The notes under the pieces: generated by a model
Told to the model about the DNA's origin: nothing
Database searches by the model: none
What the model saw: the letters and a program-made list of their open reading frames with translations, nothing else
Assembly (NCBI RefSeq): GCF_029227915.1
Contig: NC_079879.1
Span: 25,238,501-25,302,500 of the forward strand
Length of the DNA: 64,000 bases
Reading direction: 5' to 3'
Source of the DNA: Hydractinia symbiolongicarpus
Taxonomy: Eukaryota > Cnidaria > Hydrozoa > Anthoathecata > Hydractiniidae
In this document: one piece after another, positions 10,015 through 62,295 of the stretch
Position numbering within the stretch: the stretch's first letter is position 1
Layout: every line of letters starts with the position of its first letter
Position numbers and translations under genes: made by a program

Positions 10015-10124
10015 GAGACAGCGCAGCTAGGCTCGACGCACGAAACTTATCCAGGCTAAAGCTTTTGACAGATTTTTTTCTGAGAACGAGGCTACAATGA
10101 GTTTTACTCTGTCTTTGTTTTGGC

Positions 10125-11642
10125 TTGGCTCCAGCTCCACGGATTTTTACGAAGTTATTGAAAATTCCCATGGCAGTCCTTCGTCGTTTAATGATAAGAA
10201 TTGTAATTTACTTAGACGACATGTTAATTTTGGGACGGTCCAGAGAGGAGGTCCTTATGGCACGAGACACATTGATTTTTCTGTTACAAAATCTGGGCTT
10301 TTTAATAAATTTGAAAAAGTCTGTCTTGGAGCCAACCCAGAAAATAGAGTTCTTGGGAATGTCTGTGGATTCAGTAACCATGTCTCTTTATCTAACAAGG
10401 GAGAAAGTTACCAAAATACAGACGCAGTGCTTGAGTTTGTACAAGACAAGAGAAGCCACTATTCTGGAGCTAACTCAATTAATAGGGGTTCTGTCTTCCA
10501 CCATACAAGCAGTTCTTCCGGCTCGTCTAGAGTTTCGTTTTCTACAACAACAACAAATTCAAAGTCTAAAAGTATCGAAATCTTATGCCACCCTAGTGCA
10601 TTCAAAAAGGGAATCTCTGGAAGAACTTCTATGGTGGGTGAACAATCTAAAATTGTACAATGGGCGTTCCATTATGCAACCTCAAGCACAAAGTTTGTTA
10701 CAGACAGATGCTTCCCTAAAAGGTTGGGGAGCAGTTTGTCAAGGGACCAGGACAGGAGGCATGTGGTCCCAGACGGAACAGATTCTTCATATAAATGTTT
10801 TGGAATTGCTTGCAATCAAATTAGCACTTCTGTCTTTTCACAAAATAAAACAATTTGCATCAGTTCACATTCAGACAGACAACATGACAGCTTTGTCTTA
10901 CCTTCTCAAAATGGAAGGAACAAAAAATTTAACTATGATAAAAATAGCCAAGGAAATTTGGGATTTCCTATTACTCCACAAGATCACGATTACTGCAGAG
11001 TACCTCCCAGGTTGTCTAAATATCAAGGCGGACTGGGAGTCTCGACATACCCAGGACTCAGCTGAATGGAAGCTCTGTCCTGTGGTTTTCAAAATATTTT
11101 GTCAGAGAATAGGATATCCCAAACTGGACCTGTTTGACTCCCGTCTATCACATCAACTTCCAATGTATTATTCTTGGAAACCGGACCCTCACAATCTGGG
11201 TATAAATGCATTTCACCAAAAGTGGAATCAAAAGTGTCTTTATGCATTTCCTCCTTTTGCTCTGATCCACAGAGTTCTAAAAAAAGTAGAAGAGGAACAG
11301 GTTCATTTTCTGATTTTGATCACACCAACATGGCAGTCACAAACATGGTATCCCGAAGTGTTACGTCTGTCAGTGAGAAATCCATTTCTTCTTCCTATGC
11401 AGAGAAATCTTTTACAAAATCTAAAAATGGAAAACCACCCCATGGTAGTGACAGGGGCTCTACGGTTAGCTGTTTGGATAGTTTCAGGGGAAAACTCCTT
11501 GAGGAAGGAATTTCACCAGAGGCTTCCAATCTCATCATTGCTTCCAGAAGAAAGGGTACTAATGCAAATTATTCATCGTCCTGGAATAAGTGGGCTAGTT
11601 GGTGTTGTCAAAAACAGGTTGATCCATTTCAATGCCCTATAA
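10125..11642 (+). CDS. DIRS reverse transcriptase / RNase H (partial)
   Basis: 505 codons without a stop. The frame starts inside the RT domain at GLAPAPRIFTKLL; the catalytic box is YLDDML, followed by the LGFLINLKKS and IEFLGM motifs typical of DIRS RT. RNase H follows, with TDASLKGWGAVCQG, an NVLELLAI core and QTDN. The C-terminal linker (DLFDSRL, YYSWKPDP, NAFHQKW, FPPFALIHRVL, TWYPEVL) is the block that sits between RNase H and recombinase in this class. The first ATG is not the native start. Just upstream, the expected frame is broken around 10097-10115. It overlaps the recombinase frame by several hundred bases. Confidence 0.85.
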   Translation: MAPAPRIFTKLLKIPMAVLRRLMIRIVIYLDDMLILGRSREEVLMARDTLIFLLQNLGFLINLKKSVLEPTQKIEFLGMSVDSVTMSLYLTREKVTKIQTQCLSLYKTREATILELTQLIGVLSSTIQAVLPARLEFRFLQQQQIQSLKVSKSYATLVHSKRESLEELLWWVNNLKLYNGRSIMQPQAQSLLQTDASLKGWGAVCQGTRTGGMWSQTEQILHINVLELLAIKLALLSFHKIKQFASVHIQTDNMTALSYLLKMEGTKNLTMIKIAKEIWDFLLLHKITITAEYLPGCLNIKADWESRHTQDSAEWKLCPVVFKIFCQRIGYPKLDLFDSRLSHQLPMYYSWKPDPHNLGINAFHQKWNQKCLYAFPPFALIHRVLKKVEEEQVHFLILITPTWQSQTWYPEVLRLSVRNPFLLPMQRNLLQNLKMENHPMVVTGALRLAVWIVSGENSLRKEFHQRLPISSLLPEERVLMQIIHRPGISGLVGVVKNRLIHFNAL

Positions 11643-12481
11643 ATTTTGTGATAAATTATTTGGGGGAGTTATTCAAAAAGGGTTATGAATATAGAACTAT
11701 TTGTTGCCATAGATCAGCCATTTCAGCCTTTCACGATAAGATTCAAGGAAGGCCTATAGGAGAACATCCTAAAGTTATTTCTCTTATATCAGGTGTTTTT
11801 AATGAAAAGCCTCCTCAACCAAAGCACACTTTTATTTGGGATGTTCAGGTGGTCATAGATTACATTAAACAAAAATTTAAAGATAACAGACAAATATCTA
11901 TAAGATCTTTGTCTTTAAAACTTACAATGCTATTAGCTTTAACTTCAGCTTCTAGGGTGTTGGGTATTCATAATCTGTATATAAAATTTATGACTAAGAC
12001 TAATGATCAATATACGTTTACTTTTCATAAACTCCATAAGTCGTGGAGACAAGGACAACCAAATCCATCTATTGTTTTTGTCAGTTATCCAGAAGATGAA
12101 GACCTTTGTGTGTTTAATGCATTGACTGTTTATTTAGAACGCACCAGTGAATGGAGGAATGCAAGTGGTGCTTCACAGTTATTAATTAGTACTATTAGTC
12201 CTCATAAGGGTGTGGTCACCTCTACAATAGCTGGCTGGATTAAAACCGTGCTAAAGGAGGCAGGGATTGATACTACTAAGTTTTCTGACCATTCTACCAG
12301 ATCAGCTTCAACATCAAAAGCAGAACTATCAGGACTCTCTGTAAAGGATATTCTAGAGAGAGGGTCATGGTCTAAGGAATCCACATGGCAACGTTTTTAT
12401 AGAAAGGAAATTTGTTCTAATGCCAAATACAAAAACTTTCAGAATTCTGTTTTTAAGAGGGGCCAAAACGCTACGAACTGA
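11174..12481 (+). CDS. DIRS tyrosine recombinase
   Basis: Integrates the circular DIRS cDNA. The functional part begins around 11480 and contains an N-terminal core-binding region (NYSSSWNKWASWC, then INFVINYLGELFKKGY) and a catalytic domain with the expected active-site order: the first Arg in LALTSASR, His-x-x-Arg in HSTRSAS, and the nucleophile Tyr in STWQRFYRKE. The stop is at 12479-12481. The first roughly 100 codons of this frame overlap the RT/RNase H frame and may not all be translated. No internal stop or frameshift is seen in the catalytic part. Confidence 0.85.
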   Translation: METGPSQSGYKCISPKVESKVSLCISSFCSDPQSSKKSRRGTGSFSDFDHTNMAVTNMVSRSVTSVSEKSISSSYAEKSFTKSKNGKPPHGSDRGSTVSCLDSFRGKLLEEGISPEASNLIIASRRKGTNANYSSSWNKWASWCCQKQVDPFQCPINFVINYLGELFKKGYEYRTICCHRSAISAFHDKIQGRPIGEHPKVISLISGVFNEKPPQPKHTFIWDVQVVIDYIKQKFKDNRQISIRSLSLKLTMLLALTSASRVLGIHNLYIKFMTKTNDQYTFTFHKLHKSWRQGQPNPSIVFVSYPEDEDLCVFNALTVYLERTSEWRNASGASQLLISTISPHKGVVTSTIAGWIKTVLKEAGIDTTKFSDHSTRSASTSKAELSGLSVKDILERGSWSKESTWQRFYRKEICSNAKYKNFQNSVFKRGQNATN

Positions 12482-15244: not shown

Positions 15245-16190
15245 ATTTATTTTTTTAAGTTGCTGAAAAATGCATATCTGAAATGTTCATCAACAAATTA
15301 ATCGTCACGATGTCTGTAACATTAATAGCTTATAAGTTAATATGACTTACACGCATTATCTCGCCGTCAAGATCAGAGGTCTGATCCGGGTGAACCATTC
15401 TCTGGGCCTGTTAATTATTTCGGACAGAAAATCGATACTTTGAATGTATGTAAACAATAAAATATGATTTAATAAACTATAAACTTGATTTCTTGCTTTT
15501 AAGCTATAGTAGAAAATTATCTGCACATAATTTCACTGTTAAAAAATTTATATTTTTTCCCCAGAGCCTAAAAAGCAATTATGTCGGACGGACTGGATAA
15601 AAAATCAAAAAATAAATAAATTTTCATCGTCAACTAACAATCGTGGTAAAAAAAATTTAAGAATTGAGATGTTGTGACATTTTCTATTTCAAACTAAGAA
15701 AATATAATTGTTATGCACTGTTAGAAACGTATTTTTGACAGGATTAAACAAAGTTGAATTTTTTTTCATGAGGTCAAACTATTTCGTAACAGGCCTCTCT
15801 GTTGAGAATGGAATACGGGTGTGCTATGATAAATATTCACCTATATTAATAGCTTAATTACCTATTTATAGATAGCGACATCATTATTTGCAGATTCATT
15901 TGCATCAATTTCACTTTTGTGCCAAAATTTTACATACGGAAATATGACTCAGCCAATTTTTTATGTTTCTAGGAATTTTTTTTTGTATTTATATCGCTCC
16001 CTATTTTATCAATAGTCTTTTGATAAAAATTTTTTTTTAATTAAACCAAAAATTCATTACAGCAAATTAATTTAACTATGTGTGCCGATACGAACGCGTA
16101 TAAACAAGACACATTGCAAATCACCGACAGTCGGTAGCAGAGTTATACTTTTTATCGTCTTGAAGCCTCTTATTTGGTCACAATCAAAAG
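15245..16190. other. gene-free stretch upstream of the FUT8-like gene
   Basis: AT-rich; probably holds the promoter and 5' UTR of the gene starting at 16191, but no element can be assigned. Confidence 0.35.
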
Positions 16191-18153
16191 ATGGAAATAA
16201 AGGCAGCATTAAGAAGCATAGCGTTAATGTCATTTTTTATATATATGTACGTGCTAACTTTGTTTATTTTTCAACAGACATCGTATGAACACTTTACTTC
16301 GGAGATACGAGAAGAGCTGTTACGATTAGAAAATCGTTCTAAGTATCTTCAAAGTGATTACAATATCGGAAAAGTGAAGGTAGAGGAAGATAAAGACGCG
16401 CTGACAGAGTTGTTATCTGTTCCGTTTATCTTGGATCCAAAATTGAGAACAATTCAAAATGTTCATAATTTGGTTTATCAAACGTTAGATCAGCTTCAAA
16501 ATAAAGAAAACTGTGAAGATAAGAAAATAATTCGGTGCACATACTCTGGTGATGGTGATTTTGCATCCATAATGGCAAAATATGCAATATGTTTACAGAT
16601 TGCATTTGCGACAAAACGTATGTATTTCATTGATTATGAACTTCACTACAAAAATTTAGGCTGGTTTACTGAACTTGAATCAACGAAATGCAGGTTTTTG
16701 AAACACAAGCTTTCATCTATTGAAAATAAATGCAATTTCAACGACGCCAGATGCAAAGAGATCGCTTTACAAGTAAACAGTCCATATAAACTATTGAAAC
16801 TAACTGATTTTAAAAATTTATCCAGTTTAAGACACATCCATGGTATGATGTCGAAGATAATGGAAGAGGATTTGAGAGAGTCAGGTGTTAAAAATCCAAC
16901 TCTTTGGTTCACATCACAGTTCTACGGTTATATGTTAAGACCAAGCAAAGTTTTTAAAAAAAGATTTAATTATCTAATGAGATTCGTTAACCTTCAAAAG
17001 CCAGCTGTTGGGTTTGCAGTGCAAGGTGATAACAACACTTTTTTTAATTTCTCATAAACTTGGGAATGTCTTTATATTAGTTCTTGCAAAAAAAAAAAAA
17101 AAAAATTCGATTGAGATTATATTAATGAAAGGAAATTAAGTTGTCGACATTTACTTCACTTAACCCTTTATGGGCTCTGCTGCTAATTTGCAACAAATTC
17201 TTTAAAGAACCAAGAATTGATCGGCCACTTTCTATATAAAATTTGTTGTTTTCCTCTTGTATTATCTATAAAAGCGAACAAACAATTCTTTAAAAGGGAA
17301 GGAAATATATTCTTATGGGGTTGGAAGGGCATAGATCTTTCCAAATGGAAACGTTGCGGAAACAACAGGTACTATTTTTCTAAATTTGTCATTCTTACTC
17401 ACGTGCTTTTATCTTTCTCAAACTTTGTTTTTTAGAGACTCGGTACATAGTAATTCCCAAGTATAATGAAAGAAGTCTATTATCACAGAATTCCTTTAGC
17501 CCGATTCCGTAAAAATTGCCTAGGATTAAAAACTGTTTTTATGATTTTCACCACTAGATAAACATTTTCAGTTGCAAAATTTGATATTGATGGCAAATAA
17601 AAATAATGGACAGTAGTCATTTGAAGTTACGCTGAATGAATAAAACTGCCAATTTCTGTACCGTAAAACGTTCAATGTTGCAAATTTGCAACAAATAAAA
17701 AATAGGCACAAAAAAGCAATAATAAAAACATAAAATTTTTGTATCATTGCCATAATGCTTGACCCAGAAAGGGTTAAGCAATTTCTTTATTTTCCATTAG
17801 AAGAGGATGTATCTACGCAGGAAGCAGCACTGAAAGTACAAACATCAATATTGACAACCGCAAGGGATATCTATGTGGCTGGTCAAAAAAAGGTGTTCAT
17901 TGAAAGACTAGTTAACCAAAATGAAACCCGTTTTCATGTTAAAAGAATACCAGAGGTTAAGTTGTACAGTATCGAGGAGTACCGCGATAATACGGACATT
18001 AAAAGCATGAGAGTTTTGGTTGATTTATATCTTTTGCTGCAGTGTGATCAAATCATATTATCATCACAGACGAGTTTTGGAAAGCTAGTACTAGCACTCA
18101 AAAGAGCGGTCTATCCTTACGATACAAACCACATAATCGATCTTGCAATCTAA
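16191..18153 (+). CDS. FUT8-like (GT23-type) glycosyltransferase, divergent donor site
   Basis: Predicted type II Golgi membrane enzyme of the alpha-1,6-fucosyltransferase group, about 406 residues. Exon 1 is 16191-17025 (AAG|GTGATA). Exon 2 is best started at 17768 after ACCCAG; the phases match and the joined protein aligns in length with FUT8. Residues 8-28 form a membrane anchor, followed by a stem. Family blocks visible are LGWFTELESTKC, then IHGMM, LWFTSQFYGYMLRPSKVF and KPAVGFAV, and in exon 2 ARDIYVAG and SMRVLVDLYLLLQCDQIILS with SSQTSF. In FUT8 the block after VIGVHV is RRTDK, which binds GDP-fucose. Here the sequence is AVQERVKQ, with no arginine pair. The C-terminal SH3 domain of FUT8 is also absent. 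It may be inactive or use another donor. The exon 2 acceptor lacks a good pyrimidine tract, and an alternative middle exon at about 17273-17368 is possible in phase, which keeps the exact structure uncertain. Confidence 0.65.
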
Positions 18154-26344: not shown

Positions 26345-29300
26345 AAGATAATAATAATAATAATAATAATAAATATTTAAAGTGGCTAGCCCAGAAAATC
26401 ACAAAAACCTATAGTTAGTGGATTGTTTCCACTGGGGGCCACTAGAAAAAAAAAGAAACAAAAAATGATAAACCTTAGACTGCCTCAGCTCAATCAAACA
26501 TAGTAACATTTATAATCTGTGAAAATTGAAAAGAAAAAGAATAAAAAACAAAAATTAAAAAATTCAAAAGTGATCTCCATTAGAATTTGCCAAATACATT
26601 AGAGATGGAAGTCTTAAACGAAAGCAGACTTCCATCACAGGTCACTTGGTCTGGAAGATTATTCCACACTTTTGCAGCTCTAAATGGGAAGGCTTTTTTG
26701 CCAAATTCCGTGTTGACCAAGGGAAGTGTGAACCTGTTTTTTGAAGCTCCTCTTGTTTGATGATTATGACAGTTTTTTGTCAAAAGGAATTTTGAGCGCA
26801 TGTAATCAGGAGCAATGTGATTCATGGCTTTGAAAACTAATATGGCATCGTTTTTGATGAGTAAATTATTCATTGAATATTCCCTCTCTTTCCCAAGAAA
26901 GGTACGGACACATTTTAATCGTTTTTCTAGTTTTCCCAATCTACCTTGGGTGGCACAAGCCCATGCCGAGGAGCAGTAGTTGAAATATGGCATGACGAGT
27001 GCATTAATTAAAAGGTTTTTTGTGTGAGGTGTTAAACAGGATGCAATGGTTCTAATTTTAGAATATTTAATTAGTATTTTTCTATTTATGTCATTAATGT
27101 GCTTTTCCCATTGCATTTTTTGATCAAATGTTACCCCAAGATATTTAACTTTTTCGCTCCTCTTCAAAGGAATACCCATATAGTTGATAGTTTTGTTCTC
27201 AACTTTTTTTAACTGGCTGTGGTTGCCGAAAAAGATTGTTTCAGTTTTGTCCGTATTAATAGTCATTTTGTTATTATTCAGCCAGAGGTCGACTTGCGAA
27301 AGTTCTAACTCGACCTGGGAGACAAGGCTATCCAAGTTTTTATGAGACGAAATAATTATTGTATCATCCGCATATAGATGGTGGTAGTTTGAATTGATGA
27401 CAGATTTTAAGTCATCAATATACAAAAGAAAGAGCAGGGGCCCCAACACAGATCCCTGCGGCACCCCAAAAGCGTCTTCATGAAGCAGATCTGATCCTGT
27501 GTCGTTTACAAGAGTCAGCTGCATTCGGTCCGTTAAGTAGGACTCGAACCAGTCAAAGGCAGCATCTCTGATGCCAAAACACCATAGTTTTTTTAACAAA
27601 ATTTTATGATCAACAGTGTCAAAAGCTTTTTTAAGGTCAATGAGCACAGCACAAACAAAGTTATGTTGGTCGAGCTCAGTAAGAATAAAATCAGAGACAT
27701 CGACTACTGCAGTTTCTGTGGAAAAGAGTTTTCGAAATCCGGACTGTCTGTCATTCAGGAAGTTGTGCTCAGAAATAAAATGAGACATTTGCTCATGCAC
27801 TAACTTTTCAAAAATTTTCATAGGAATTGGCAAAATGGAGATAGGCCGATAATTAGTAGGATCTGTTTTATTGCCACTTTTAAAAATAGGCGAGACCCTT
27901 TTAGTCTTCCAACATTTAGGTACATAACCAGTAAATAAAGATTTGTTGAAAAGACTTGATAAATAAATACTTAAAACTGACGAACCTGCTTTTAGCAGTC
28001 GTGAACCAATTCCGTCCAAGCCTGTAGCTTTATTAAGTTTTAGTGATCTAATTATTTTTTCGACACTTTTGGTCTCAATACGAGCCCACCGAAAATCGTG
28101 TCCGCTAACAGGTGGATTAACATTAGTAGTGTCAGAAGAAAATTTAGAGGCTAGTTTGGCACCAACACTGACAAAAAATGAATTGAATGTGTTGGAAATT
28201 TCTTTTGGGTGAGAAGTCTCTGTACCATCGTTTTGGACTACTCGTTTTATCGAGGTAGTATTGCCTGACTTATCAGGAACCAGTTTTTTTAGGGTTTTCC
28301 AAAGTTGTTTTGGCCGTTTTTGAAAGTCCTGCAAAACGTCATTATAGTACTCGTTTTTGAGTCGATTTTTGAGACCTATTACCTGGTTCCTTTTTTGTTT
28401 GAAAGCTTCCCAGTCTATGATGGATTTTGTTTTTGATGCTTTCCGTTTCAAGAAGTCTCTTTCTTTGATGGCTATTATTAATTCATCAGTGACCCATGCC
28501 TCAACACGGCCAGAAAATCTATGTGTTTTGAAAGGGGCATGTTTGTCAGCCACTGTTTTAACATTTTTATTCAGTTTCTCACATGCTTTATCAAGGTCAT
28601 CATAATTATTAAAATATGACCAGTCTAAATTCCTGAGGTCCTTCAGAAAAGCCTCTTCACTGAAGTTCTTGTAGCTACGAACCTTGCATGTTTTAGGTTC
28701 AAATTTTGGCCTTTTGAATTTTCTGATCACATAAACTAAATTGTGATCACTGATGCCTAAATCCATGACACCAGTTTTAGAAATACAAGAACTGTTAGAA
28801 AGTATCAAGTCTATAAGAGTGCTACTATTTTCAGTAACACGAGTTGGCTCCGTAATATGTTGTTTTAGGAAAAGAGTGGAGCATAATTCCTTTATTTTGG
28901 AGGAAAGAGCATATTTTGAAAGCATGTTACAGTTAAAATCTCCCAAGATAAAAACTTCTTTCTCTTCTGGGAGCTTGTTAAAACACTGTTTAAAATGAGT
29001 ACACAGGTTTTCGGTACTCTGCAAATCACTACCTCCAGGTGGCCTGTAAACCCCACACACGTAAATAGGTTTAGTTTTTTTCAGGCACACTTTCACCCAT
29101 AGTGATTCAACATTTTCGTAGTAAAGGTGTTTCAAAAGGTGGCTATCCAAGTTTTCATTAACAAAAATTAGAACACCCCCACCTCGTCTATTCCGATCAT
29201 TCCTATAACAAACATAGCCATCAATTTTAACGTCATTGTCAGTGATGGTGTCATCAATTTTGGTTTCACAGATGGAGAATACATCAAGTTTTGTTTGATG

Positions 29301-29605
29301 TAGCAGAAGTTTAACATAGTCTAGTTTGGATGACAGACCATTAATGTTGAGATGGGCCATTTTTAAGCCCTTCCCATTTCTGATTGCCTCAAAATCAAAG
29401 TTTTCATCAATAGTAATATTGATGTTGTCCGGAATTTCGTCACCAAATGACTCCTCATTAGCAAAGGGCAAATTACGAGAAAGACAGGGACTGCAAACGA
29501 AAAACAGTTTATCTTCAGGAGTCTTCATAAATTGTTGATATTTTTTATCAGAAATACGCTCACATTTTTTATGAGCCCATAATTTCAATTTCAATGTAAC
29601 CTAAT
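26345..29605 (-). mobile_element. 5'-truncated LINE with intact ORF2 and (TTA)n tail
   Basis: The element runs on the minus strand from about 29605 (an in-frame TAG lies just upstream of the open frame) to a TTA repeat at 26348-26373, which is a typical CR1/L2-group 3' tail. The 3' UTR is about 205-230 bp. The reading frame is uninterrupted, which suggests a young copy. The 5' side, including any ORF1 and the first half of the zinc finger, is lost, as expected from incomplete target-primed reverse transcription. Confidence 0.85.
26580..29594 (-). CDS. LINE ORF2: endonuclease-reverse transcriptase
   Basis: 1004 codons with no stop. It begins in the second half of a PHD-like finger (WAHKKC...FVCSPC); the frame opens with TTG and the true start has been lost. 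The apurinic-endonuclease domain has LKMAHLNINGLSSK, FSICETKI, GGGVLIFV, YRPPG, FILGDFNCN and, at its end, LGISDHNLVYV. The RT domain has LNKATGLDGIGSRLLK, YRPISILP, RQSGFRKLFSTETA, LIDLKKAFDTVDH, GVPQGSVLGPLLFLLYI with DDL, YADDTIII, and VKYLGVTFD. The C-terminal region has MPYFNYCSSAW. Domain order and motifs match CR1-clade elements. All catalytic motifs look intact, so this fragment could encode active protein if transcribed. Confidence 0.9.
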   Translation of the reverse strand: MKLKLWAHKKCERISDKKYQQFMKTPEDKLFFVCSPCLSRNLPFANEESFGDEIPDNINITIDENFDFEAIRNGKGLKMAHLNINGLSSKLDYVKLLLHQTKLDVFSICETKIDDTITDNDVKIDGYVCYRNDRNRRGGGVLIFVNENLDSHLLKHLYYENVESLWVKVCLKKTKPIYVCGVYRPPGGSDLQSTENLCTHFKQCFNKLPEEKEVFILGDFNCNMLSKYALSSKIKELCSTLFLKQHITEPTRVTENSSTLIDLILSNSSCISKTGVMDLGISDHNLVYVIRKFKRPKFEPKTCKVRSYKNFSEEAFLKDLRNLDWSYFNNYDDLDKACEKLNKNVKTVADKHAPFKTHRFSGRVEAWVTDELIIAIKERDFLKRKASKTKSIIDWEAFKQKRNQVIGLKNRLKNEYYNDVLQDFQKRPKQLWKTLKKLVPDKSGNTTSIKRVVQNDGTETSHPKEISNTFNSFFVSVGAKLASKFSSDTTNVNPPVSGHDFRWARIETKSVEKIIRSLKLNKATGLDGIGSRLLKAGSSVLSIYLSSLFNKSLFTGYVPKCWKTKRVSPIFKSGNKTDPTNYRPISILPIPMKIFEKLVHEQMSHFISEHNFLNDRQSGFRKLFSTETAVVDVSDFILTELDQHNFVCAVLIDLKKAFDTVDHKILLKKLWCFGIRDAAFDWFESYLTDRMQLTLVNDTGSDLLHEDAFGVPQGSVLGPLLFLLYIDDLKSVINSNYHHLYADDTIIISSHKNLDSLVSQVELELSQVDLWLNNNKMTINTDKTETIFFGNHSQLKKVENKTINYMGIPLKRSEKVKYLGVTFDQKMQWEKHINDINRKILIKYSKIRTIASCLTPHTKNLLINALVMPYFNYCSSAWACATQGRLGKLEKRLKCVRTFLGKEREYSMNNLLIKNDAILVFKAMNHIAPDYMRSKFLLTKNCHNHQTRGASKNRFTLPLVNTEFGKKAFPFRAAKVWNNLPDQVTCDGSLLSFKTSISNVFGKF

Positions 29606-44118: not shown

Positions 44119-46841
44119 CTAAAATTTTCGAAGTGTCAGGTCTGGCCGTGTGGGCAATGTTACGTGGTCGCAAGGAGGTTTAAGCTTGTTTACAACTTCT
44201 TTACCACAGATCTTTACCTTTACCCCACTCTCCTTTCTTTCAATTATGTCATTCATTATCGCATCAACAAAACTGAAAGACTTGGGTTCTTTCACAGGTT
44301 TCGCGACCCACTCTTTATTCAATTTGCTTGAGACAAACTTCCACTTTTTTTCACCGACCTTCTGACTCCCTTTACGCGCGCATTTTACAACAGCCTGCTT
44401 TCGACCAACGTTATTGTTATGGTCCAAGATAGCCAACTTCACTCGGGCGTTCATCACATTCAACTCGAAATGTTGCCGTTTTGGTGCGTACGCTGTTATC
44501 AGTGAGTGAAAAACTTCCACGCCCCCTGTGTGGTATGGTTCGCAAAGAAGTTCCATATCCTTCAAGTTTTTTTTATCAAGGACGATTTCTTCCAATGCAT
44601 TATACGCTGGCGAATGTTTCTCAATCCACTTCTTCTTTCGTGCCTCAGCACTAGAATAGGCTTCGTGTCGGCACCTGGGATACTTGGGATATTGCTTCGC
44701 GAAATTATGTTTATTCGTAACATGTTGAAGTATCGACTTCCACATTTGCACCAGCAGCTCTGGGTCACCTTGGCAGTTTTCGGCACACCAGAAAAGATGA
44801 TTTCCTATTGGTTTGATCCAATCCTGTAATATTCGCCTATCTTTTCGTTTTACTAATGGTCTAAGTTTGGCTTTGATGTTCTTAGCAAAATGCCATGGAT
44901 CATACCGATGCATGATATCTAACCTGTTTTCACGTATCCATTTAGCGATTTGCCTGTTTCGGTCCGTGGCAACTCTTCCTACAGGATAGTTATCGGACCT
45001 TAACTGCTCAAGGCAATTTTTGAAGCCTTGTAACTCCAAGGGCGCCGAACCTTTACCGGTTGTTGTTTGGATTGTGGTTGTCGCAACAATTTTGTTAGAC
45101 GCTGACGATTGTAAACTATATGTGCAATACTTGGCAGATTTACCAGGTGAGTCAAATCTGCCATCGCCAAGACATGCTTCATTCTCTCCCCGACTATCCT
45201 CTCTTGCACTGGCAATATTTTTCACGAAATGGTCGTTTACAGTTGGGATTATCAGTGATCGCTGAACATCATAGTATGTTCGTTGATTGACAAAATTTAA
45301 ACCAGAAAAATTCGCAACTTTCTTCCCCCTTTCATATGTGTTCCTAAAATAGTAATATATGATTTTAGGTGATCCAGACTGCAGCGTGCTATATGAGCAG
45401 CGAAAATAACAAAAAGTCAACATGTCCGAGAGATGAGGTTGCTTTCAACCCGTTTGAAAACATGGCATAGCCTGCTGTAAATTTGCATATCATCATGCAG
45501 CATGCAAAAGAAGATTTTTTTTACCTGAACAAAATATTGCAGAGGATAGCAACAAATTAAATGCTGGCATTTTTCCAAGCATGGGTTGACTTTTTCAGTC
45601 AAAAACCACATGCTCATTGATGCAATACCCTTTGTATAGTACACGTTCCCTGCTCACGCTTTTCGATACTGGTTGCGGTTCCATCACATGAACGACAGGG
45701 CAGTAAGTTAAATATTTCATCTAGCATGCTTTCGAAAACAACAAATTTCTTTTCTTTTAAAATGCTTCGTTCGGTTTCATGAGCATCACTAATATTGATT
45801 GACTCTTCTGCACTTTCAGCGATGTAATCAGAATCTTTTTCATCGTCAGTTGGTAAGGATTGTAATGACAAGTTTATAGGAGAGAGTGAGACGTCCTCAC
45901 AAACGTGCTTTCTTTTAGAAGGAGTGGAGCAAACAGTTTTTTCTTTGGAATATGCGTGATCGTTTACCACAGCAACGTAATTAGCATAAATGGAATAATA
46001 CTCGGGAGCTTGCGCTTCAAAGTCACATGATTCTAACCGATCAGTTTGACAGCTTCTGTTTAAGTCGCTTAGTGATATTTTACATTGAACTCCAACGTTC
46101 TTGTGGGTTGGTTCAATAATCTTGAAAGATAAAATAACTAAGTTTTACCGAAAAAAAAGTTGCAACAAATCAAAATCAGTTACAGCGTGACTTACATCCT
46201 TCACATTTATGATCATGATGGTTTCTTCTTCAACCAAAGTTGGATTTGTTTGAACATTCACAGTTTCGTTTTGAGAAACTTCGTTTTCCGTTAGCAGATG
46301 GCCGATAAGCTGTAAAACACAAAATTAAATACAACTCAGTGTAAACAGGACCTAAACAATATCATTTGAAAACACTCCAGAGGTAGTCTAGATAAAAAAT
46401 AGAAAGAAAACTGATGTAATTATATGTTAGAAAAAAGTGACCAACTTCAGAACGTGCTAATTCTTCACTTCGTCTAACAGATAATTTTCGTTGCTGTAAA
46501 TGTTTTGTGCCGTCCATGTTTATTTCATCGTATGTTTTGTGCGAAAATTTTGTTGGCACTGCCCCCGGTACTAACTCTTTCTTTTTTCTTTTCGTAAAAT
46601 ATTCCGGCAATGTTATTTCTTTTTTTAAACAATCTGGGTGAAAATGATCTTCGCATAACACAGCGTCTTTACCAAATTTCAACGTATTGATGTTCACATC
46701 GGCACGACCCATGTTGTTTATCCATCTCAAACAACGCAACTTTTCTTCGTTACTGTTCGGTCGAGGAATCATAAAAAAAGACTTCTTCACCTCTCCTTTC
46801 GCAGTACTATTTCTACAGCCATAAGCTTTACAAGTAGGCAT
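44119..46841 (-). pseudogene. THAP-domain Kolobok transposase, interrupted
   Basis: Four exons on the minus strand: 46841-46446, 46309-46196, 46120-45525, 45343-44119. Exon 1 encodes a THAP zinc-binding DNA-recognition domain: MPTCKAYGC start, C-x-C, later CLRWINNMGR, then CEDHFHPDC and a YF/VPGAVPT end. Exon 4 encodes the catalytic region with GDGRFDSPGKSAKYCTY, VATDRNRQIAKWIRE, RYDPWHFAKNIKAKL and the late EVFHSL. In exon 3 the frame holds to REQGTC, then shifts by one base near 45621-45629; the continuation reads INEHVVFD, then TGA (45595-45597) where a Trp is expected, then KSQPMLGKMPAFNLLLSSAI. The exon 3-4 junction is also off by one base. With these lesions no full-length transposase can be made. 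ATG at 46892 is an alternative upstream start. Confidence 0.82.
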
Positions 46842-47134
46842 CGTTTTTGGAAGAAAGATAACATCAACAAATACGCTGTTACGTTTGTTCACATTGTGTA
46901 AACAACTTTAAAAAAGATGAAGAGATCAAAAAATTGAAATGAGCGTAAAATACGTCATAGATCTCCATCGCAGATTTTTTATGATTTAAACATGGCGATT
47001 ACTGTTGTCAACTTTTATGCTAGAAAAGGGATGTAAATTCAAAGAATTTCAATTTTTTTATATACCATCAAAATAAGTAGGGTTTGTAAAAGATATTTCC
47101 GAAGAAAAAAAATTTGGGCTTAATTCCCCTTTAA

Positions 47135-48870: not shown

Positions 48871-49815
48871 TCATACTTCCTCAAACAGTTGTTTAAATAC
48901 AGAAGGAATTTTCGCAACCATGTCATTAGTTATCATCCCTCTATCGTTCTCAACAAAAGCAACTTCGTTCAGCTTCTTTGTGAACCTACAGGCACCATAC
49001 CCCGCAAGAAGTGTCTTGTGTTCATTTTTCGAAATCTCTGCCCAATGACTAAAAACTGCGATGGCTCCAGACAATATATCACCCTGTCCTCCACATCGTC
49101 GATTGCTTCCACCAATAGCAACAGTTTTAAATTCTGAATTAAATATCTTGTCAACAGCGCCTTTCCGAACAACAGTAACATTTTTAAAACGTTGTGAAAA
49201 GTTAAAATCTGCATCTTCGTCGATTTCAATTGATACAGCAGAGCACAATCTTTGAAATTCAATTTCGTTCGGTGTTACAACAGCAGTTGAGAAGTTTTCC
49301 ATTAAATCTGGAAACTTCGTCAACACATGCAAGCCATCTGCATCAATGATTGTAGTTACGCCACTAGATTTTAACTTTTGTATGATACGATAAGACAATT
49401 CGACTGTGGTGTCGTCCCGCCCTAAGCCAGGACCAATAACAACCACGTGTAGCCGCTGCAACCAATTTTCCAGCTGTTCAAACGCATCTGAGTCATTTAG
49501 AATTGGATGCACAATCAGATCAGGACTGTAACACTTGATTGCAGTACCAGCATCTTGAGAACAAAACACATGTGCTAAGTCAGCGCCAAGACGAAGCGCT
49601 GTCATAGCAGAAAAATATGGCGCTCCTGTATACTCTCTGCTACCTCCTATAATACCAATCCGACCAGCTTCACCTTTATGCTGCTTTGATGTTAATTGCG
49701 GTATTATACTTTGGACATCGCTTAAATGAAAATCGAGAACAGCGTGCTTAGACATGCTTCTGTATTTCGTAAAATTTCTTCCAAAATGGTTAAAATTTTG
49801 AACTGCTTTTAACAT
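48871..49815 (-). CDS. NAXD: ATP-dependent (S)-NAD(P)H-hydrate dehydratase
   Basis: Metabolite-repair enzyme that dehydrates damaged NADHX/NADPHX back to NADH/NADPH using ATP, working with the NAXE epimerase. 314 codons in a single exon. Ribokinase-like fold motifs of the family are present in order: GEAGRIGIIGGSREYTGAPY, RLGADLAHVFC, VVVIGPGLGRDD, TTIIDADGLHVL, VVTPNEIEFQRL, VVRKGAVD and the ATP/anion-hole motif NRRCGGQGDILSGAIAV. The N-terminus (MLKAVQNFNHFGRNFTKYRS) is basic and free of acids, compatible with mitochondrial import, and a second Met (SMSKH) could give a cytosolic form. Length agrees with the family. The lack of introns contrasts with every neighbouring gene and suggests a retrocopy or intron loss. 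No disabling mutation is visible. Confidence 0.95.
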   Translation of the reverse strand: MLKAVQNFNHFGRNFTKYRSMSKHAVLDFHLSDVQSIIPQLTSKQHKGEAGRIGIIGGSREYTGAPYFSAMTALRLGADLAHVFCSQDAGTAIKCYSPDLIVHPILNDSDAFEQLENWLQRLHVVVIGPGLGRDDTTVELSYRIIQKLKSSGVTTIIDADGLHVLTKFPDLMENFSTAVVTPNEIEFQRLCSAVSIEIDEDADFNFSQRFKNVTVVRKGAVDKIFNSEFKTVAIGGSNRRCGGQGDILSGAIAVFSHWAEISKNEHKTLLAGYGACRFTKKLNEVAFVENDRGMITNDMVAKIPSVFKQLFEEV

Positions 49816-50397
49816 CCGTAAGTTTTGTTTGAAAGTGAACTTTTCTGAAAGACGAACAACACACTAATTAAAACAATTATAAAAACATTGACAGGCTATC
49901 CGAGTTGTGGGTGCCATTGAACAAATCAAACGCTATAATACATTAAACCAAACGGATAACATCATGTTTTCGATTCCAACAATCAATGTTGTCATAGATT
50001 TGGGAGTTGAGGATTTAGAATGTGGTCCATTGATCTAATCAAAAAATACAATTCTGTTTCTTTAGTCATTTCGCTAGTTATACATTTTGTACAACGCACA
50101 AACAAAATATTAGCGATGACATAAATAAAATTATCTCTCATAGCGAGGAGCTTATCCAAAAAAAATCATTGCAAAAATTATCCTAGTACAAATAATATAA
50201 TTTCAAGAAATGACTTCCAATGTTGCACGAATTCCACGCAAAATGTGAAATTTTTTATTGAGAGTTGCTTAATACGCAATGAACAAACAAACAAAAATAT
50301 TTAACAGCATTTAAATCGCTTAAAGGAGATAACAGATGAGTTGAATGAGGTAACACAAATTGGAAAGTCGCAACCGAAGACTAAAAAAACATAAAAA
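49816..50397. other. spacer between NAXD start and ACAT1 stop
   Basis: Holds the NAXD promoter region and the ACAT1 3' UTR. A minus-strand AATAAA (TTTATT at 50254-50259) lies about 140 nt after the ACAT1 stop. Nothing else recognised. Confidence 0.4.
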
Positions 50398-59841: not shown

Positions 59842-61882
59842 TTAGGCAGTCGGGAAGGAGAGCGTCTGTTGTCCACGTTCGGGGTCGTTTAATCGGAACA
59901 GCCGCACACGTTCGCTGCCAGCTACAGAGCTAAACAAGAAGAAAATTTACTTTAAAAACGTGTGCCGTGGAAATCGTGAATTCCTAAAAAAGCATTTAAA
60001 CTGTTCACACTTACCTCATGTCTTGTGGTGTGAGAAGTATAAATTGACGATGTCTTTGTTCTTTTGCTATCTTCATTAGCATCCCCATTGAAATACGACG
60101 ATTCACCATGTCCTATAACACCAAGAAACGAAAAATTATGTTGACTACACGACACAGTAGAAAAATAGTATTGGGATACCTTAAAAAATAAGACTTCGTT
60201 TTTGAGTTCCTTTAGGTTAAGAAAATTTTCAAACCCGTGAACAGGCAAATATTGGCTAACTGGCTTTTAAATACTAGTTACAGTTTTTTGCAACCTTTTT
60301 GTTGTTGTGTTTTTGTAAAAAAATATAAGTCTTTCCCATTTCCCAAATTTAAGAAACTTCGACTTTTCTAAAGTAAATCCGGGGTGATATAAGGTGTTAA
60401 AATTTTGTTGTAGAGTCGTTTAAAATTTAAAAATAGCTTATCTGAAGTTCCAGAGAGCTCAACAAAAATATAAGGGGTCTTGTACTAGTAACAACATTTT
60501 TAAGACTTAATGTTCCAATTTTTTTTTCTAGAACCCTTATAATTAAAATTTATATTATAAGTTTAGATTGTTATCCTTTAACATGTCAAATGCTATATGA
60601 CGTCATAATTTAGGCAGAATAATTAAATATTAAAATCGTAAAATCAAACATAATATAATTTCGACATCATTTTAATCACCTCGGATTCCCTTTAGGAACA
60701 TTGAAGTACTTAGGGTAGTTAAAGAGTGTAACATGCCGCGTCAGGGAACCGAATGTGTTATACATGAATAGTAGACTTATTACTGTTCGGAATAGAATAC
60801 CATCCTATAGTTTTTACTGTTTAAAATTCCTAAATTTCGTGGTGATTTTTTAACACAACAGAAGTTAGCTCTTGCATGAAAATGTTACGTTACCATAAAC
60901 ACGTCAAATTCGTCAAGACAACGAAATGGTGCTTCCATCGCATCCCACAATGCCATGATAAAACAAATTGTAGAAAACGACCGCTCTCCACCGGAGAGTG
61001 CTTTTGAATCCTTGGTACTAGCTCCTTCTGCATTTTCAACGTTCACCTAAAAAGTAGACCATACTTTAATTGTTTTTTTACTTCATAATTTGGCAAAATT
61101 AATAATTGGCAAAATTTTGGAACAATAAAATTTTGTGAACTGAGAAAAGGTATTTGTCATTATTTAGATTCGTTTTTTTCTTCCTTTTAGAAAATAAACA
61201 ACACCTTTAAGATGTTTTAAATCAATAGACAGAATTTTCAAAAATAAATATTAACAAATATTAAAGTCGTTATTACAACTGGTGATTTGTATTTTACGTA
61301 CAGCGTCTTCCTTAAGATATTTATTGAAATTATAAAACTTTAATTTCACTTTTTTGCGTTTAAATTAATCGAAGAAAATAAAATTGCAAAAGGTTATGCA
61401 AAATATTTCTAAAAATATAATTTTTCCTAGCATAAAACAAAAACGGGATTAATTGTATTTTCTGCTCTGCGCATGCGTTAAACAATCATTAAACCGTCAG
61501 GTGACACTGTATATCTATAACTTTTCTGGTTACCTGAACAACTAAGGTCTCTTCTTCGTGGTTGATTTTCATCTTACCAACGTAACCTCGTTGCGACAAA
61601 AGCATTTCAAAGAAGTATCTGGCACGAAGAGTGAGAAGCCTTTGGAATTTCGCAAAACTTCGTGACCTGCGACGAATCGCGCAGTCAAGGAACTAGAAGG
61701 AAAAACGAACATAATAAATATACCTGAACGGAAAGGGATTCTGCATCATGATTAAATGTCAATTTTCCACTGTAACCCCTCTGTGAGAGCATCATTTGGA
61801 AGTAATACACTGCTCGTATAACAATGTATTGTTGGAAGTCTTTAAATCGCTGGCTACGACGTACGAGCGCTTTATGGGAAGC
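59842..61882 (-). CDS. SMC6: structural maintenance of chromosomes protein 6, C-terminal exons
   Basis: C-terminal ATPase lobe of SMC6, partner of SMC5 in the complex for recombination repair. Exons on the minus strand: 61882-61724 (exon B), 61692-61534 (exon A), 61046-60894, 60112-60015, 59929-59842 (stop TAA). The 61046 exon holds the ABC signature and Walker [16 protein letters not shown] and [11 protein letters not shown]; the next has [12 protein letters not shown] and [10 protein letters not shown]; the last ends [13 protein letters not shown], as in animal SMC6. Exons A and B are both 159 nt, both phase 0, and encode alternative forms of the same segment (26 of 53 residues identical by eye; both contain MLSQRGY- or LLSQRGY-GK). 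They are separated by 31 nt and are probably mutually exclusive. Upstream exons (Walker A, hinge, coiled coils) were not found in the window. Confidence 0.93.
60370..60692. mobile_element. degraded MITE in an SMC6 intron
   Basis: TAAAGTAAATCCGGGGTGAT on the left is loosely mirrored by ATCACCTCGGATTCCCTTTA on the right, with AT-rich DNA between. It resembles the left end of the 57.5-kb repeat. No clear target-site duplication remains. Confidence 0.4.
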
Positions 61883-62295
61883 CTATAAAACATAGGTGAT
61901 GTATTTTGGGGAAGTCTTAAAATCGGTGGCTACAACGTACCAGCGCTTTATGAGAAGCCTATAAAACATAGGTGATGTATTTTGGGAAGTCTTAAAATCG
62001 CTGGCTACGACGTACCAGCGCTTTATGAGAAGCCTATAAAACATAGGTGATGTATTTTGGGAAGTCTCAAAATCGCTGGCTACGACGTACCAGCGCTTTA
62101 TGGGAAGCCTAAAAACATAGGTAATGTATTTTGGGAAGTCTTAAAATCGCTGGCTACGACGTACCAGAGCTTTATGGGAAGCCTATAAAACATAGGTGAC
62201 GTATTTTGGGAAGTCTTAAAATCGCTGGCTACGACGTACCAGAGCTTTATGGGAAGCCTATAAAACATAGGTGAGGTGTTTTGGAAAGTCTTATA
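61883..62295 (-). repeat. tandem array duplicating the SMC6 exon B splice acceptor
   Basis: Five units of 74-76 bp. Read on the minus strand each unit is CACCTATGTTTTATAG (a 3' splice site) followed by GCTTCCCATAAAGC, CTGGTACGTCGTAGCCAGCG and ATTTTAAGACTTCC, which are the first roughly 50 nt of exon B with small changes. In each unit the exon-B frame meets TAA where exon B has AAA. The array ends where the true exon B begins. It is a tandem amplification of an intron-exon junction. Confidence 0.9.

Follow-up and report, generated by a model that had tools for sequence, protein, structure and literature searches.

The alpha-tropomyosin exon pair, whose exclusivity Smith and Nadal-Ginard reportedly traced in 1989 to an unusual branch point location, as the title of their paper has it, belongs to a muscle gene with a distant branch point, and this gene encodes no SMC protein. 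Exons 4a and 4b of the vertebrate OGDH genes are kept mutually exclusive by their branch points, which in human follow the upstream donor at 25-41 nucleotides (nt), a distance that falls short of the steric limit of about 50 nt between donor and branch point (PMC5740500; PMC7969005), and the human clusters of mutually exclusive exons are likewise characterized, in the part of the survey cited, by donor-branch distances of less than 50 bp (PMC5740500). As far as the cited part of a second survey goes, doubled alternative exons are mainly tied to ion transporters, brain, and muscle, not to SMC proteins (PMC9741552); SMC6 is not named in the main text of either survey (PMC9741552; PMC5740500), and neither is SMC5 in that of PMC5740500. 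The open-access literature searched, by titles and abstract starts of the papers listed, and with subscription papers largely outside, yields no exon pair in SMC6, in agreement with a preliminary description of the locus considered here, whose author knew of no SMC6 isoform switch of this kind. This locus lies in a stretch of 64,000 nt of the genome of the hydrozoan Hydractinia symbiolongicarpus (NC_079879.1, positions 25,238,501 to 25,302,500, forward strand; hereafter, the window), in which the SMC6 gene carries two adjacent versions, B and A, of one exon. We consider it probable, with a fair margin for error, that these stem from a tandem exon duplication in hydrozoan SMC6 and have been kept as a sterically enforced mutually exclusive pair, from which two SMC6 forms are made. 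The exons concerned are, in window coordinates and in the order of transcription:

64200-64299, minus strand: upstream SMC6 exon, ending in KLIK, joined to A in P0001, the nearest protein found (residues 881-914 of the latter)
61724..61882, minus strand: exon B, 159 nt or 53 codons, phase 0-0, SMC6 profile score 80.7 bits, acceptor score 7.5, donor score 8.5
61693..61723, minus strand: 31-nt gap between B and A, with the donor of B (GTATAT) at its start and the acceptor of A (TTTTTCCTTCTAG) at its end
61534..61692, minus strand: exon A, 159 nt or 53 codons, phase 0-0, SMC6 profile score 79.6 bits, acceptor score 7.3, donor score 9.0
60894..61046, minus strand: next SMC6 exon, with the ABC signature LSGGERS and the Walker B motif CLDEFDVFM, phase 0

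As to the anatomy of the pair, B and A are neighboring homologous exons that agree in length and phase (159 and 159 nt, phase 0-0), and both are intact and under coding constraint, as is expected of mutually exclusive exons. The coordinates, the strand, the 159-nt lengths, phase 0, and the 31-nt gap with its GT and AG ends (the gap starts GTATAT and ends TTCTAG) are all as they had been described, and the earlier estimate that about half of the residues are identical is matched by the 26 of 53 found in direct comparison. The predicted frame shift on reading through the gap is real as well, translation from B reaching a stop after 12 further codons (open reading frame 61685-61882). Splicing of B to A across the gap, on the other hand, gives 318 nt in frame and a doubled segment, and since this join is in frame, the reading frame cannot enforce exclusivity, which must come from spacing; spacing alone could provide it. 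A search of the genome (481 Mb in 76 contigs, the SMC6 locus being on contig C5) with 52 residues of exon B returned two places alone, B and A, at E 0.001 or better. The bases of the two exons differ at 79 of 159 positions, and with a single place for each exon, the assembly artefact that the preliminary description had named as a possible refutation is very unlikely. Two candidate explanations were discarded on these grounds, a second SMC6 gene, as the search with exon B returns this locus alone, and a collapsed or doubled assembly, as A and B are unlike at about half of their bases and have one place each.

Both exons also read as genuine coding SMC6 sequence, as originally proposed, without decay. 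The A-form protein was used as a query, and the best 120 of 3126 matches were kept; a pattern served to segment 108 of these 120 and failed on the other 12, and, P0001 being then left out, 107 segments made up a profile against which A scores 79.6 and B 80.7 bits. Six other hydrozoan SMC6s (P0002-P0006, P0008) score 70.3-78.8 bits, P0007 scores 78.7, and five anthozoans score 75.8-93.7, each hydrozoan comparison sequence being left out of its own profile along with near-identical rows. Twelve columns are conserved in 90% or more of the rows; A departs from them at one, with I in place of F43, and so does B, with S in place of L2, which leaves each exon with 11 of the 12. The two exons share 26, 37, and 17 of 53 bases at codon positions 1, 2, and 3, respectively, against chance means of 13.3, 14.4, and 13.5 in 10,000 column shuffles; the values at positions 1 and 2 were reached by none of the 10,000 shuffles, and the shared third-position bases are not above chance (P = 0.17). 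With third positions saturated while the proteins stay SMC6, constraint has acted on both copies through most of their history after the duplication. An unconstrained stretch of 53 codons at the base composition of B would be stop-free with a probability of 0.04.

The gap had been judged too short for normal splicing, and it falls well below the intron lengths obtained from this genome. Elsewhere in the SMC6 model, intron intervals span 82 to 5711 nt (28 of 28, one of which holds an unplaced piece), and the shortest of 46 estimated introns in genes of the TCP-1 chaperonin family measures about 79 nt after correction for profile overlap, with raw gaps of at least 61. This sample made use of 66 of 68 matches, dropped pairs that were at least 20 profile positions or at least 6000 bases apart, and counted twice one gene present twice on contig C1. 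The shortest human intron marked as spliced, in the cited part of one study, measures 43 nt (PMC4463651). The splice sites themselves are of ordinary quality: under a weight matrix built on the SMC6 gene's own sites (27 donors, 27 acceptors), the donors of B (8.5) and A (9.0) and the acceptors of B (7.5) and A (7.3) are all mid-range for the gene, the B donor, CAG/GTATAT, resembles the gene's other donors, and the A acceptor is pyrimidine-rich. The best branch-point-like motif in the gap, a candidate by its motif, is TTTAT, whose A is nine bases away from the start of the gap and 22 away from its end; with 31 nt in the whole gap, any branch point within it is less than about 50 nt from the donor, and the branch point may instead lie in exon B. 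We infer that the block on joining B to A is steric. The upstream exon (64200-64299) would be spliced to B or to A, and then to 61046; the donor of B and the branch point of A would share the 31 nt, with the candidate branch point eight bases after the donor, and U2 would be unable to assemble at the branch point together with U1/U6 at the donor, leaving no B-A join. In this respect the arrangement is unlike that of the OGDH exons 4a/4b, whose branch points lie far from the acceptor in a longer intron, whereas the gap in SMC6 totals 31 nt.

One line of evidence on the messages comes from P0001, which is 97% identical over residues 760-966 of the A-form query. Its 1079 residues are encoded by a contig of at most 3420 bases, and, this being short for a gene that spans about 32 kb here, the contig was taken as the spliced message of a close relative. 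In P0001 the upstream exon accounts for residues 881-914, exon A for 915-967 (with 52 of its 53 residues), and the next exon for those from 968 onward; B is absent, and the junction 914/915 leads from the upstream exon straight to A. Of the two SMC6 isoforms proposed at the outset, the one with A has a message without B in a close relative, and the one with productively spliced B is putative, B having been seen in no message. Two further proteins, P0125 and P0126, start inside the segment and are not assignable to A or B. A narrow protein search aimed at B returned 8 candidates and 1 match, none with B, and is no evidence of absence, its region (773-833) being misplaced so as to cover 29 upstream residues and the first 32 of B, which occupies 802-854. 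The protein database is clustered at 90% identity, and full-length A and B forms differ at about 27 of 1079 residues; the B form could be hidden in the cluster of P0001, which holds 6 member sequences.

The two forms would differ over 53 residues that comprise the last part of the C-terminal coiled coil (the neck, with the expected grip of the kleisin Nse4) and, just ahead of the signature, the first strands of the C-lobe of the ATPase head. In fission-yeast SMC6, Nse4 is bound by residues 960-984, among which L964, L965, L968, E969, L972, and R975 matter for the binding and three of these six for other complexes as well (PMC7297730). Where the upstream exon joins A, the same spacing is filled by L, I, L, D, I, R, and with B in place of A, by L, I, S, H, L, R, the match being one of spacing. 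The pair appears to cover the predicted Nse4-binding neck, and the A and B forms would differ in their grip on the kleisin. One of the changes, the H at exon position 3 of B, calls for caution if it is to be read as a defect, as 8i4x_B, another solved SMC6, is aligned with H at this position. We take 8i4x_B to be the budding yeast SMC6. In the C-lobe, B retains the commonest residue at two positions where A departs from it: at position 38, B has S, as do 56 of 108 homologs, and A has V (3 homologs), and at position 43, B has F (99 of 108) and A has I (4 homologs). If both forms are made, then a core chromosome-maintenance motor would possess an internal splice switch at its kleisin gate, and the animal would offer a natural test of the role of the Smc5/6 neck.

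The SMC6 proteins of other animals represent the same gene, with the same motifs and the same segment, and the preliminary description had stated that this segment occurs once in SMC6. This holds for P0001 and fails for the database models of two of the 120 listed homologs, P0023 (the crinoid Anneissia japonica), with units at 882-934 and 935-987, and P0042 (the mussel Mytilus californianus, isoform X4), with units at 936-988 and 989-1041. The scan for second units covered the 240 proteins found, and among the 120 listed it recognised none in the remaining 118; as a divergent copy can score low, the count of two is a lower bound. The units in both P0023 and P0042 are exactly 53 residues long and stand back to back; in a second mussel species, P0061 (Mytilus trossulus isoform X3) shares 1079 identical residues with P0042, with one 53-residue gap at the doubled unit. 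Identity within the pair is 17 of 53 in the crinoid and 15 of 53 in the mussel, compared to 26 of 53 here, and the more usual unit is the first in the crinoid and the second in the mussel. The likeness to the Hydractinia pair extends to the gene, the segment, and the 53-residue spacing, and is known from predicted chains alone. In a tree of 27 rows, the data are compatible with a separate clade for each pair (p = 0.39 and 0.42), which favors separate duplications, and they do not reject trees that unite the divergent crinoid and mussel copies with either A or B (p = 0.13 and 0.083), the branches being long. The crinoid and mussel duplications are probably separate from the hydrozoan one. The doubling of the 53-residue unit in the crinoid and mussel models points to a neck exon that was duplicated repeatedly or very early, and the neck region of SMC6 is seemingly prone to exist in two versions. 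A broader proposal, that animals repeatedly doubled the SMC6 neck exon to obtain two Smc5/6 motors, with A retaining the Nse4-binding pattern, with B (through its S and H, and despite its more usual C-lobe residues) altering the kleisin grip in some cells or stages, and with crinoids and mussels operating the same switch, is offered as a speculation more apt to fail than to hold. Were both forms made, the crinoid and mussel cases would make the SMC6 neck switch a recurrent solution.

With respect to the age of the hydrozoan duplication, segment trees place A and P0001 with P0002/P0121, not with B (91/89; bootstrap 87-91; 97/89), and of the 27 columns that distinguish A from B, 12 have P0002 and P0121 on the side of A and 3 on that of B. 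Making A and B sisters costs even the best such tree 12-14 log units. The grouping of B with P0003-P0005 received 80/87 and 85/88 in two runs, and 61/16 and 45/6 in two others, with no resolution in one tree. This pattern suggests, without proving it, that exon types A and B separated before these hydrozoan lineages did. The order among Hydra, Clytia, P0002, P0003-P0005, and this gene is not settled under two models, and the age of the duplication is therefore not fixed.

A further element of the locus bears on the use of B:

61824..62293, minus strand: 75-nt tandem array, 6.3 copies at 94%, built from the 3' splice site of B and the 5' end of exon B

The array adjoins B upstream and includes five complete upstream units, with decoy acceptors at 61958, 62033, 62108, 62182, and 62257; each unit repeats the acceptor and the opening stretch of exon B (identical at 40-42 of the first 45 bases). 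Each complete unit is followed through 13 open codons to an in-frame stop, the unit at 61958 having a variant 13-residue peptide, and each also possesses a donor-like CTG/GTACGT (score 7.6) that would define an 18-nt microexon. The repeat was found at no other place in the genome, and being both local and 94% uniform, the array must be young. The decoy acceptors, if used, would turn much of the splicing directed to B non-productive, and the array would allow a test of how a minisatellite erodes an alternative exon.

Several of the observations weigh against a mutually exclusive pair yielding two forms. No B of this species or of its close relative is found among the best 120 of 302 matches to a search for partial proteins with B, and the five decoy acceptors score 7.5-10.7, compared to 7.5 for B's own. 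At exon position 2, each of the 108 homologs (108 of 108) has one of L, I, M, and F, and B has S; at exon position 3, 80 of 108 have D or E, and B has H. The crinoid and mussel sequences P0023 and P0042 are predicted proteins with both units in one chain, and exclusivity is not shown there; such chains may be artefacts of gene prediction or may reflect real joint inclusion. When trees with A and B as sisters are put to the approximately unbiased (AU) test, the outcomes are p = 0.037 and 0.047 (21 rows, two models), 0.128 (19 rows, these being the 21 minus two long ones), and 0.072 (16 rows), leaving the age of the duplication unsettled. By nearness, 64 of 107 homologs go with A and 37 with B, with 6 ties, and the ancestral copy is not settled; the suggestion that B is the more ancestral one was dropped on this recount.

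The first three of these points are shared with an account in which B is a recently retired exon that owes its readable state to the short time elapsed, A is constitutive, and the minisatellite at the 5' end of B is a symptom of the retirement. Such a history is to be taken seriously even if we think it unlikely: only A was found in a message, B breaks a residue that is hydrophobic in all the homologs compared, and the array adds five rival acceptors along with stops. However, at 80.7 bits, B scores above all six hydrozoan SMC6s tested (70.3-78.8), is without a stop, and has good splice sites, and the saturation of third positions between A and B places most of the history of B under constraint. 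The same array could instead make B a non-productive switch, with use of a decoy acceptor leading to a stop after 13 codons, destruction of the message, and a lowered SMC6 level. The decoy scores of 7.5-10.7 against the 7.5 of B, and the stop after 13 codons in the exon frame in every complete unit, fit this scheme, but a young local array cannot account for the long conservation of the B coding sequence, and we judge the scheme improbable. Inclusion of both exons, with the gap acting as a real ultrashort intron and the neck segment doubled in the protein, would be in keeping with the GT and AG ends, with the in-frame B-A join, and with the crinoid and mussel models, possibly products of gene prediction, that have both units in one chain; with the gap far below the introns measured here and P0001 having one unit, it is very hard to credit. 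An error of assembly, to which a short tandem array beside the pair might point, is next to impossible with A and B differing at half of their bases and each having one place in the genome. The sterically enforced pair thus stands as the preferred explanation.

The gene to which the pair belongs was traced with a human SMC6 sequence and then with P0001 as probes. Numbered as in the window, its exons extend from 92221 to 59842, which puts the 5' part of the gene outside the window, and the last two are as follows:

60015..60112, minus strand: SMC6 exon, 32 residues, traced with the human SMC6 probe and P0001
59842..59929, minus strand: last SMC6 coding exon, with the stop codon, traced with the human SMC6 probe and P0001

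The model comprises 29 exons, with one of the B/A pair counted, and has an open frame with phases that agree at the junctions joined, the phase check having left out the first exon and four exons that were added later (77219, 67453, 66192, 65920). Three exons (69057-69137, 67847-67940, and 65920-66039) were placed by eye, outside the P0001 exon table, and no place in the traced gene was found for some nine residues of P0001 (566-574). The original assignment of the gene to SMC6 is confirmed by the motif exons, with Walker A (GRNGSGKSA), the hinge, the signature (LSGGERS), and Walker B (CLDEFDVFM) in the SMC order, by the best PDB match, and by the tree. This PDB match is 9lwi_A, an SMC6; when exon B and the next exon are joined, their residues 9-104 align with its residues 926-1021, and by offset, the exon pair would correspond to about residues 918-970 of 9lwi_A, which we take to be human SMC6. 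Among the matches listed, P0001 is followed by P0002-P0005, Hydra vulgaris (65%), and Clytia hemisphaerica (62%), and in a tree computed without the exon pair, the gene sits with P0001 inside a fully supported group of Hydra, Clytia, and P0002-P0005. By sequence comparison, the SMC6 gene is that of a hydrozoan, and an insect origin was rejected on the basis of these matches and this tree.

Other parts of the window hold further open frames. An open frame of 1006 codons (26580-29600, minus strand), with endonuclease and reverse transcriptase domains by Pfam, resembles an uninterrupted retroelement without long terminal repeats. Three overlapping frames are found at 10031-12481 (plus strand), of which two were tested, one matching reverse transcriptase and also, just under the cut-off, RNase H, and the other having no Pfam match; the element looks akin to DIRS-type retroelements. 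A single open frame of 330 codons (48871-49863, minus strand) encodes an NAD(P)H-hydrate dehydratase (Carb_kinase), another open frame (46362-46907, minus strand) has a THAP domain, and a third (16164-17057, plus strand) matches the alpha-1,6-fucosyltransferase domain (FUT8_N_cat). In the genome at large, two pairs of matches with identical scores occur far apart on one contig, namely a TCP-1 family exon (C1:14329287/C1:17969783) and an SMC-family exon (C5:3301394/C5:33940425), and such pairs are either recent duplications or uncollapsed haplotypes in the assembly.
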